Source: Variovorax paradoxus (lineage in GTDB: Bacteria > Pseudomonadota > Gammaproteobacteria > Burkholderiales > Burkholderiaceae_C). From it: a stretch of DNA of 64,000 nucleotides. A model generated the notes under the pieces. It saw nothing but the letters and a program-made list of their open reading frames with translations, was not told where the DNA came from and did not search any database. The stretch covers positions 928,001 through 992,000 of the forward strand of contig NZ_CP102931.1 in the NCBI RefSeq assembly GCF_024734665.1. Direction: 5' to 3'. Of the stretch, positions 5,611-7,258 are shown piece by piece. A program made the translations under genes and the position numbers. Numbering within the stretch: the stretch's first letter is position 1; every line of letters starts with the position of its first letter.

Positions 5611-6590
5611 TCGAAATCCTTTCGTCCGCCGCGCTCGCCACCGTGCAGGACCTGGGCCGCACCGGCAGCCTGCGCTGGGGCGTCGGCACCTCGGGTGCCA
5701 TGGACAACCTCGCGCTGGCCGCCGGCAACCTGCTGCTGGGCAATGCACTCGGTGCGGCTGCCGTCGAGGTGCCGGTGTTCCCGTTCAAGGTGCGCTTCGA
5801 CGAAGACTGCGCCTTCGCACTGACCGGTGCCGACTGCGCCGCCAAGCTTGACGAGCAACCCCTGCTGCCCTGGTGGGTGCATCAGGCACGCGCCGGCCAG
5901 GTGCTCACGCTGGGCCTGCCGCAAGGCGGCGCGCAGCGCGGCAGCCGCGCAGTGCTGTGCGTGGCCGGCGGCATCGACGTGCCCGAGGTGCTGGGCTCGC
6001 GCAGCACCCAGCTGCGCGGCGCCTTCGGCGGCCACGAAGGGCGCGCACTGCGCCGCGGTGACGTGCTCCGCGCAGCCGATGCAGGCAATGCGTGCCGCAC
6101 CGGCTTCGGCCTCGTGCCGCCCGCGCTCGCACTGCCGCTGGAGCGCGATGGCGTGGCGGCCGTGCGCGTGCTGCCCGCGGCCGAGTACCTGGCCTTCGAG
6201 CCGACTTCGCGCGAGGCCTTCTGGTCCGGCGAATGGAAAATCACCTCCCAGAGCGACCGCTACGGCTACCGGCTCGACGGCGAGGCACTGCGGCCCATCG
6301 CACCGATGGAACTGCGCTCGCACGGCATCGTGCCCGGCGTGATCCAGGTGCCGCACAACGGGCAGCCCATCATCCAGATGCGCGACGCCCAGCCTTCGGG
6401 CGGTTACCCCAAGTTCGGCACCGTGATCGAGGCCGACATGTGGCGCCTCGGCCAGGCGCCCATCGGCAGCCGCATGCGTTTCATCGAAACCACCTGGGAA
6501 GAGGCGCTGGATGCGCTCGACGAAGTGCGCGCTTGGCTCGACAAGGTGGCGCGTGTGGTGGAACTGCATCGGGGGGCGCCTCATGTGTGA
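5607..6590 (+). CDS. pxpC: 5-oxoprolinase subunit PxpC (KipA-like)
   Basis: A 327-residue KipA/allophanate hydrolase subunit 2 protein of normal length. Landmarks are ATVQDLGRTGSLRWGVGTSGAMD at the N-terminus, CVAGGIDVPEVLGSRST, and the late signature SHGIVPGVIQVPHNGQPIIQMRDAQPSGGYPKFG. It starts inside the pxpB stop and probably works as a 1:1 complex with PxpB. The operon is interrupted after it by 272 bp holding two inverted structured repeats before the second BCCP-like gene. Confidence 0.92.
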   Translation: MIEILSSAALATVQDLGRTGSLRWGVGTSGAMDNLALAAGNLLLGNALGAAAVEVPVFPFKVRFDEDCAFALTGADCAAKLDEQPLLPWWVHQARAGQVLTLGLPQGGAQRGSRAVLCVAGGIDVPEVLGSRSTQLRGAFGGHEGRALRRGDVLRAADAGNACRTGFGLVPPALALPLERDGVAAVRVLPAAEYLAFEPTSREAFWSGEWKITSQSDRYGYRLDGEALRPIAPMELRSHGIVPGVIQVPHNGQPIIQMRDAQPSGGYPKFGTVIEADMWRLGQAPIGSRMRFIETTWEEALDALDEVRAWLDKVARVVELHRGAPHV

Positions 6591-6608
6591 GATTCGTTGT
6601 TCGGGGCG

Positions 6609-6704
6609 CGATCACGCCGACGGCGTGCTCTGCTCCGCGAATGTCCCCCGGCCTTCGGCCTCCTCCTTTATTTCGCTGCGCAGAGCACACCATCGACGTG
6701 ATCG
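6609..6704 (-). repeat. structured palindromic repeat, copy 1 (minus orientation)
   Basis: A 96-bp element with 25-bp outer arms (6609-6633 and 6680-6704) that pair with 22 Watson-Crick pairs. The three other positions are G-U on the minus strand and A-C on the plus strand. Arms enclose a 46-bp core that reads on the minus strand GCAGCGAAATAAAGGAGGAG..., with an inner GGCC-GAA-GGCC hairpin and a GCGAA/TTCGC stem. The core matches copy 2 but the arm sequence is unrelated. No U-tract follows, so it is not a normal terminator. Confidence 0.8.
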
Positions 6705-6748
6705 TTCAGCGCACTGGTTGATTGGCCAGCACGAGAGCCGCGCCCATT

Positions 6749-6842
6749 GTGCGAAGAGCACCGGGTGCTCCCCGCAGCGAAATAAAGGAGGAGCCGAAGG
6801 CGGGGGACATTCGCGGAGGGGAGTACCCGGTGTTCTTCGCAC
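6749..6842 (+). repeat. structured palindromic repeat, copy 2 (plus orientation)
   Basis: A 94-bp element, inverted relative to copy 1. Its 25-bp arms (6749-6773 and 6818-6842) have a sequence unrelated to copy 1 but pair with 23 Watson-Crick and 2 G-U pairs on the plus strand. The 44-bp core equals the copy 1 core except for loss of one G and one C that would pair in the inner hairpin. It lies 20 bp before the degenerate BCCP gene, within the operon transcript. Confidence 0.8.
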
Positions 6843-6862
6843 GCACCCCGGAAAAAACTGAC

Positions 6863-7258
6863 ATGCAGGACACCACACTGCGCACTCCGCAACTCGCCGC
6901 CTGGCTGGCAGGCACCGATATAGGCCTGCTGGAACTGCGCACGCCAGAAGGCACCTTGCGCCTCGGCCGGCAGGGCGACGAAATCGTGGAGCTGCCGGAT
7001 GAAGAAGCCGAGCCCGAGCTCCTGAATATCCACGCCCCTTCGCTCGGCGTATTCCTGCAAAGCCATCCAATGGCCACCACATCACTGGTGCGCATCGGCC
7101 AGCGCGTGGAAGCAGGCCAAATCGTCGGCCTGCTGAAGATCGGCCCGCTGCTGCTACCCGTGACGGCACCGCAAGCCGGCATCGTCGACAACATCCACGC
7201 GGACGATGCAACGGCCGTCGGCTACGGCGCACCGCTGTTCGACCTGCACCCCCTCTGA
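6863..7258 (+). CDS. biotinyl-domain protein lacking the biotinylation motif
   Basis: A 131-residue protein laid out like a BCCP: an N-terminal helical segment (LAAWLAGTDIGLLEL), an acidic linker, and a C-terminal lipoyl/biotinyl-like domain with the RVEAGQIVGLL and TAPQAGIVDNI turns. Aligning EAGQ with the first BCCP puts Pro95 where that protein has lysine K108, and EAMKM is absent. It therefore cannot be biotinylated in the usual way and may be a structural or docking subunit. ATG 6863 follows the second structured repeat, with no clear ribosome site. pxpA follows 21 bp later. Confidence 0.8.
   Translation: MQDTTLRTPQLAAWLAGTDIGLLELRTPEGTLRLGRQGDEIVELPDEEAEPELLNIHAPSLGVFLQSHPMATTSLVRIGQRVEAGQIVGLLKIGPLLLPVTAPQAGIVDNIHADDATAVGYGAPLFDLHPL

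Follow-up and report, generated by a model that had tools for sequence, protein, structure and literature searches.

In the window, by which we mean the whole 64,000-nucleotide stretch of Variovorax paradoxus DNA analysed here (positions 928001-992000 of a genome that forms a single 7.29-Mb contig), a pair of long inverted repeats joined head to head lies between two genes on the + strand. The upstream gene, named pxp in an earlier note on this DNA, ends with a stop codon at 6588-6590 according to the list of open reading frames, and the downstream, accB-like gene (open frame 6863-7258) starts within the string CTGA-C-ATG at 6858-6865; comparison of orthologous junctions indicates that the extra DNA starts directly after the stop codon and ends at this string. 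Each repeat unit is a long hairpin whose outer arms covary freely. Its inner loop is rich in purines and hardly varies, and its apical stem is variable and self-complementary; in each unit, one strand pairs better than the other, and this core strand reads GCAGCGAAATAAAGG.

The core strand of unit A is the − strand. Along it, the 5' arm (6677-6704) is followed by the 5' half of the core (6660-6676; GCGAAATAAAGGAGGAG, an exact match at genome positions 934660-934676), the apical stem, the 3' half of the core (6637-6649; GGGGGACATTCGC, from direct reading and family comparison) and the 3' arm (6609-6636), which pairs with 6677-6704. A linker that is near-palindromic in sequence (6705-6748) connects unit A head to head with unit B, which has the same parts on the + strand, i.e. 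a 5' arm (6749-6776), the 5' half of the core (6777-6793; GCGAAATAAAGGAGGAG, exact match at 934777-934793), the 3' half of the core (6802-6814; GGGGGACATTCGC, again from reading and family comparison) and a 3' arm (6815-6842). The doublet is bordered by outer end sequences that are inverted relative to each other, GTTCGGGGCG on the A side (6599-6608) and GCACCCCGGA on the B side (6843-6852). Direct reading of the sequence bore out the earlier note's description of two inverted repeats with self-complementary arms, whose cores are the same outside the apical stem (A has GGCCGAAGGCC and B has CCGAAGGC) and whose five non-Watson-Crick arm positions are all G-T on the core strand, three in A (on the − strand) and two in B (between its 3' and 5' arms). 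The same note took the two hairpins as the repeat unit, which is too small, as the repeated entity is the whole doublet with its flanking ends; an outer-end pattern, GC[AG]CCC[CT]GAA with at most one mismatch, adjoins 62 of the 67 hairpins found in this genome.

The fold of the doublet is not a product of chance, given the z-scores of the whole doublet stretch (−12.4 on the + strand and −11.7 on the − strand) and the absence of any equally good fold among 200 shuffles on either strand. When folded as RNA, the core strand of the unit A hairpin has a predicted energy of −66.2 kcal/mol compared to −53.5 kcal/mol for the opposite strand, and the respective values for unit B are −65.0 and −55.0 kcal/mol. 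The predicted minimum free energy structure of 6595-6860 as RNA is a cross-paired fold, core with core (−165.4 kcal/mol). Thus, the cross-pairing of the cores that had been proposed is energetically possible in one long strand; the accompanying claim, that a structure is selected in the pxp operon transcript, is not supported because the wobble-tolerant, more stable strand of unit A is the antisense strand of the operon. A search of 6400-7000 against Rfam yielded no family at its gathering score; among five weak matches, the best was to a microRNA model (E = 0.0015, 33.4 bits vs. a cut-off of 90).

Several features of the B end were noted by eye. This end often carries a purine-rich stretch resembling a ribosome-binding site directly before the next start codon (6843-6865 in the window, and other loci), and at some loci, it also has CTGA at this place, an arrangement that looks as though the downstream gene received its initiation region from the element. 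In the partial view available, a GCGCCC(C/T)GAACA-like unit is sometimes present in tandem in the B-side outer flank (L227, L250 and others).

Covariation of the arms and the inner loop

Covariation was analyzed in 317 unique arm pairs, chosen from all loci by the core only, which form 56 arm clusters (more than 15 differences in 50 positions between representatives); a few broken or recombined representatives (e.g. L135, L146, L306 and L352) were kept in the count. With the register counted from the core, 71% of the positions in the 56 representatives are Watson-Crick pairs and 9% are G-T pairs, i.e. 80% are paired, and shifting the arms by one or two positions lowers this share to 40-45%. 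The three innermost positions of the arms are usually A-G, C-G and G-A. In a version of the analysis that took the best of 20 offsets, 96% of the positions were paired in 285 units, compared to 67% when right arms were drawn from random other units.

The wobble pairs are strongly biased to G-T on the core strand, with 122 G-T and 36 A-C in the 56 representatives, and 729 G-T and 79 A-C in all 317 arm pairs, although the copies are related, so that these are not counts of independent events. In the host genome, arm pairs 4-26 of the A units comprise 606 Watson-Crick, 68 G-T, no A-C and 16 other combinations, and those of the B units 749 Watson-Crick, 88 G-T, 3 A-C and 11 others; the bias to G-T is seen in 30 of 30 A units and in 35 of 37 B units, the other two being equal. 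A strand-biased mutation process could be an added source of this bias. The compensatory change and strand-specific wobble described earlier for the two units of the window thus hold over the 67 hairpins of the genome and the 56 arm clusters. A genome-wide core search had been proposed, and the arms of the other copies indeed pair, apart from a minority of broken copies; equal wobble on both strands had been named as counterevidence, and the observed distribution is strongly one-sided (156 G-T vs. 3 A-C in this genome). The suggestion that each copy has unrelated arms of its own needs correction, as the arms in this genome belong to two standard types, A and B, with compensated sub-variants. 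When the window copy is compared to four orthologous copies, both sides have changed with pairing retained in 3-5 of the 23 arm pairs of A and in 1-3 of the 23 arm pairs of B, and 0-6 arm pairs are broken in the other copy. Such paired changes can be either in-place compensation or replacement by other copies.

The inner loop has the form 5' AAGG-N-GGAG … GG-N-GGACA 3'. In 298 hairpins with paired arms, the nearly invariant positions are T-x-AAGG-N-GGA (5' side) and G-N-GGACA (3' side), with both N varying between A and G; the invariance of the 5' side is partly built in because most loci were fetched by the exact 5' 17-mer, whereas the 3' side was not so selected. The two variable positions are coupled: the 5'/3' combination is A/G in 276 of the 298 hairpins, G/A in 7, A/A in 7 and G/G in none, with other changes in 8 (p = 10−10, Fisher test on the four combinations, kinship ignored). 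When cores with G at the 5' position were sought in 101 genomes of the same genus with the 3' position left free, 147 of the 150 matches listed had A and 3 had G, as counted by eye. The closing pairs of the core covary as well (GCGAA/TTCGC, GCGAC/GTCGC, GCGGC/GCCGC). Taken together, the coupled positions and the covarying closing pairs suggest that the inner loop most likely adopts a folded structure on the core strand. The standard energy model gave no sign of a quadruplex, the minimum free energy being the same with and without quadruplexes allowed.

Distribution, gene context and occupancy of junctions

When the region 6590-6862 was compared to its own genome, 81 matches were obtained, 25 of which, the window copy included, span nearly the whole query at 82-100% identity; none of the other copies exceeds 92% identity to that of the window, so that there is no sign of recent movement. 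The 17-mer GCGAAATAAAGGAGGAG is present in 63 exact copies and in 4 copies with one mismatch (within three mismatches, there were 37 + 32 matches compared to 6 + 3 for a reversed-pattern control, and two further three-mismatch matches were left out of the family). The 67 hairpins with the core are located at 41 loci, as 25 head-to-head doublets and 17 solo units (12 B and 5 A). With the units typed by the seven letters preceding the core, every one of the 25 doublets consists of one A and one B. A region of 1.66 Mb (2.67-4.33 Mb), roughly opposite dnaA (6.90 Mb), is free of family hairpins; the chance of such an empty stretch is about 2 × 10−5 if 42 units are evenly spread.

Within the bacterial family, 38 of 399 genomes (own genome included) contain the 17-mer, with no matches for the reversed control in the same 399. 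The hairpin pattern was detected in 26 of 30 chosen genomes, which were picked partly for having matches, in 4 of 398 genomes across the phylum (own genome included), and from 0 to 108 times per genome in 21 genomes of the same genus. Among 80 listed stretches, out of at least 120 with the core, most of the named records are Variovorax, and the core is also carried by Ramlibacter, Hydrogenophaga, Rhodoferax, Pseudorhodoferax and Xylophilus, as well as Lysobacter, Stenotrophomonas, Pseudoxanthomonas and Stagnimonas; in the contexts viewed, the hairpin surrounds the core in these genera. The doublet is present on three Variovorax replicons larger than 1.1 Mb that are listed as plasmids. A search for a phage origin produced no match in 50,697 phage records. 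In IMG/VR, the six matches to the 17-mer had no hairpin in the visible context and mostly resembled ribosome-binding sites before a start codon; the bare 17-mer is therefore no proof of a hairpin. Draft contigs seem to stop within about 130 bases of a hairpin at L084, L086, L088, L089, L091 and L105, and likewise at L109, L118, L129, L130, L141 and L147, so that the repeat may break short-read assemblies and copy numbers from drafts may be too low.

The spacing between head-to-head units is nearly constant, and in the own genome each such pair combines one A with one B. Among 150 unique core pairs less than 400 bp apart in all loci, 148 are head-to-head, 2 are direct and none are tail-to-tail, and in 123 of the 148 head-to-head pairs, the gap between core ends is 95-104 bp. 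The doublet is intergenic, and in co-directional gene pairs, A is located at the end of the upstream gene and B at the start of the next one. Genes were predicted with a crude codon score for which the window served as training set. With gene strands given in the direction from A to B, the AB doublets of the own genome lie in (+,+) pairs in 18 cases, (−,−) in 1 and (+,−) in 1, with one side uncalled in 5 and no divergent pairs. At other loci, 58 of 96 doublets were typed as AB by a looser rule, with 43 (+,+), 1 (−,−), 5 (+,−) and 9 in which one or both sides are uncalled; the 43 are not fully independent cases, as they may include the window copy again (L224) and up to four orthologues. The orientation bias of AB doublets between co-directional genes is thus 18:1 in the own genome and 43:1 at other loci. 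Outside typed AB doublets, the orientation bias is weaker and convergent sites are common: the remaining 38 doublets (17 untyped, 17 with one side typed, 2 AA and 2 BB) include 8 (+,+), 5 (−,−), 13 convergent and 2 divergent cases. In low-copy records and in other genera, the loci tend towards the 3' ends of genes, with 11 convergent, 3 divergent and 13 co-directional pairs among 27 loci with both sides called. An explanation of the orientation by replication strand was rejected, given ratios of 14:11 with the origin assumed at the contig start and 13:12 in a manual count that places dnaA at 6.90 Mb.

A given junction can carry the element in one species and be empty or decayed in another. By our own reading of the sequences, the junction of the window, between the upstream gene and the accB-like gene, is filled in 5 of 22 other genomes (L225-L229, where L229 is cut by a contig end and L228 has a damaged B end), decayed in 3 (L230, L233 and L234, the last retaining end-like sequence only) and empty in 14. 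The sequence CTGA immediately precedes the start codon in 9 of the 14 empty junctions and does so, among filled or decayed copies, in the window, L225, L226, L227 and L230. It follows the right end in all five copies that keep this end; it precedes the left end in only three of seven copies (L228, L229 and L230), with TTGA in L225, GTGA in the window and neither in L226 and L227. Only the decayed copy L230 has CTGA at both ends. Because its presence at the left end is inconsistent across copies, no target duplication is claimed. A second junction, which looks like sucC-sucD from the start of the protein, is filled in 5 of 11 other genomes (with a broken A arm in L335), damaged in 3 and empty in 3, and its left boundary is indistinct.

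Comparison with known repeats and the search for a mobilising enzyme

The palindromic repeats described in earlier papers are short and many are tied to Y1 enzymes (PMC2817692, PMC3733652, PMC3116915). Among these, the REPIN of Pseudomonas fluorescens SBW25 is a REP doublet that forms hairpins and occurs with RAYT, and Y1 enzymes are the proposed movers (PMC3116915). The hairpin family shares with REPINs the dispersed extragenic inverted doublets, compensatory changes, singlets as remnants and a proposed single-strand fold (PMC3116915); the 25 doublets of the own genome are inverted, palindromic, fixed in spacing and dispersed extragenically. In contrast to the short REPs, the hairpin units are about 95-100 nt long, and the invariant part is the inner loop rather than a terminal tag. 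Furthermore, each doublet has two arm types and no Y1 gene adjoins it in the loci examined. No conserved GTAG was seen by eye at the foot of the 67 own hairpins, and no associated Y1 gene flanked by the repeat was found in 30 genomes and 45 Y1 loci. Given this lack of a Y1 link, we call the family REPIN-like in behaviour and do not assign it to the REP/RAYT family.

GTAG/CGTC-tagged REPs and TIRtron/TIRYT elements are similar in forming head-to-head palindromic dimers with frequent G-T stem pairs, and the TIRYT motif GGGGWSAS is superficially like GGGGACA[T/G] of the hairpin family (PMC3733652). However, many of the Y1 genes examined are flanked by a different, AATTGGGGTCAGATTCCAATT-like sequence and none by the hairpin; GGGGWSAS does flank many of these genes, but in this other context. 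Such AATTGGGGTCAGATTCCAATT-like repeats fitting the TIRYT motif border many Y1 genes of Comamonadaceae and Xanthomonadales (L275-L294, L361-L384). ERIC, YPAL, NEMIS and similar elements are long imperfect palindromes of 100-200 bp that are intergenic, can be transcribed with operons and conserve their stem sequence; the hairpin family is like them in size and location, whereas it varies the stems and conserves the loop. In GGA-repeat quadruplexes with tetrad and heptad layers, GGNGG runs are likewise brought together, but the quadruplex of the hairpin family is putative and obtains no support from the energy model. No earlier description of the repeat was found in a search of open-licence papers.

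A Y1 partner of the RAYT or TIRYT kind did not emerge. The own genome has one PF01797 match, with no core near it. PF01797 is present in 25 of the 30 chosen genomes, including all 4 without the hairpin, and missing in 5 that have it; it is matched in 16 of 22 other core-holding genomes. In the 45 Y1 loci, a loose filter gave 7 candidate matches in 5 loci, none of which proved to be the hairpin on reading. Overall, no mobilising enzyme was found among the PF01797 searches and the neighbour-gene scans. Stretches of 4.9 kb (L254) and 0.7 kb (L064) between widely spaced cores, read by eye for an autonomous version, contained nothing transposase-like, and no common neighbour gene was apparent at 28 low-copy or distant loci, where 86 of 88 called neighbours were scanned and the first 25 of 126 families are metabolic, transport and regulatory. 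The 4.9-kb stretch (G215:C46:132800-138600), between head-to-head cores, holds a row of small open frames, several with a TVGQK/TVGHK-like stretch; as a guess, this could be an immunity-gene island.

Proposed origin and recognition of the doublet

The reading we favour, tentatively and at slightly less than an even chance, is that the doublet belongs to a dispersed family of two-hairpin repeats and that these are REPIN-like, non-autonomous mobile elements whose recognised form is single-stranded DNA. Under this proposal, the repeat would spread as a non-autonomous element of the REPIN type, and a putative enzyme would recognise the folded core strand as single-stranded DNA, reading the sequence of the loop but only the shape of the arms, so that the arms would be free to drift with compensation. 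The unlike arms of A and B would prevent a giant single inverted repeat, yet place one core on each DNA strand. The weakest step is the orientation bias, which might come from a polar target at stop/start junctions combined with loss of gene-breaking insertions. The reading draws support from the fixed-register covariation over 56 arm clusters, the head-to-head arrangement of 148 of 150 close pairs, the range of 0 to 108 pattern counts per genome, the mixture of filled, decayed and empty junctions, the independence of orientation from replication and the presence of the doublet on the three large replicons listed as plasmids. In addition, wobble favours the core strand in A units (68:0) as well as in B units (88:3), although the two are on opposite strands relative to transcription. 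This bias suggests that what is selected is either single-stranded DNA or RNA read outward from the middle, and as the favoured strand of A is antisense to the operon, the operon mRNA is not what selection sees in A. Several results weaken the mobile-element reading, namely, that neither a mobilising enzyme nor an autonomous version was found in the searches described above and that Y1 genes do not track the family; the lower orientation bias in doublets not typed as AB also counts against it, as does the identity of 92% or less between the window copy and the others in this genome. The target-site idea is weak, given the few copies with CTGA before the left end and the indistinct left boundary at the second junction.

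A further possibility, more specific and rather doubtful, is that the family represents an undescribed class of mobile DNA, with an inner-loop module in which GGNGG faces GGNGG, with coupled N, on one strand and between arbitrary stems. This module would be read by a putative non-Y1, single-strand-specific enzyme and, in Variovorax, would be placed precisely at stop/start junctions in one orientation. Possibly, it is a two-layer quadruplex or another non-canonical purine fold.

It seems unlikely, although G-U wobble is fully compatible with RNA, that the hairpins are structured RNAs, with core strands transcribed outward from the middle (or B alone in operon mRNA) that bind a protein or control mRNA ends. 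The core strand of B is the mRNA strand at co-directional junctions, and in the two units of the window, the core strand is predicted to fold better than the opposite strand by 10-13 kcal/mol; however, in the same doublets the core strand of A runs antisense to the operon, the Rfam search of 6400-7000 gave no family at its gathering score, and at orthologous junctions in relatives the copy can be missing or decayed.

Other intergenic repeats have been described as tuning mRNA stability or processing. A role of this kind, in which the reverse complement of A and B would cross-pair over the core in transcripts and tune intercistronic stability or processing, would agree with the cross-paired minimum free energy fold of the full-length RNA and with the strongly biased orientation of AB doublets relative to transcription (18:1 and 43:1). 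We nevertheless regard it as quite improbable, since a simple operon-mRNA role is disfavoured by the antisense strand of A and by copies decayed or missing at the same junctions in relatives. Moreover, the wobble bias of A is on the non-transcribed strand, the arms differ by type, the apical stems of A and B often differ within a doublet, and doublets also occur between convergent genes.

The outer inverted ends beside the hairpins (GTTCGGGGCG/CGCCCCGAAC, or a longer end with ACCTTGC) are what a MITE of a DDE transposase would have, with the hairpins as passengers, and CTGA, present at both ends in one decayed copy, is a hint in the same direction. This origin is very unlikely because there is no consistent target duplication, the core is common to Lysobacter, Stenotrophomonas and others whose viewed flanks lack these ends by eye, and strand-specific pairing is left unexplained. 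A bidirectional transcription terminator, consistent with the lean of low-copy and other-genus loci to gene 3' ends (11 convergent of 27), is most improbable, as the doublet in Variovorax lies immediately ahead of the next start codon within gene pairs for which co-transcription would be expected, and the outer flanks viewed show no T-run after the stem.

The repeat is large and conserves the loop rather than the stem. It is common to Comamonadaceae-type genera and Xanthomonadales, at up to about 100 hairpins per genome, with no mobiliser found. By comparing the strands in A with those in B, one can tell whether single-stranded DNA or operon mRNA is under selection, and the coupling of the two purines in the loop provides a precise structural prediction.
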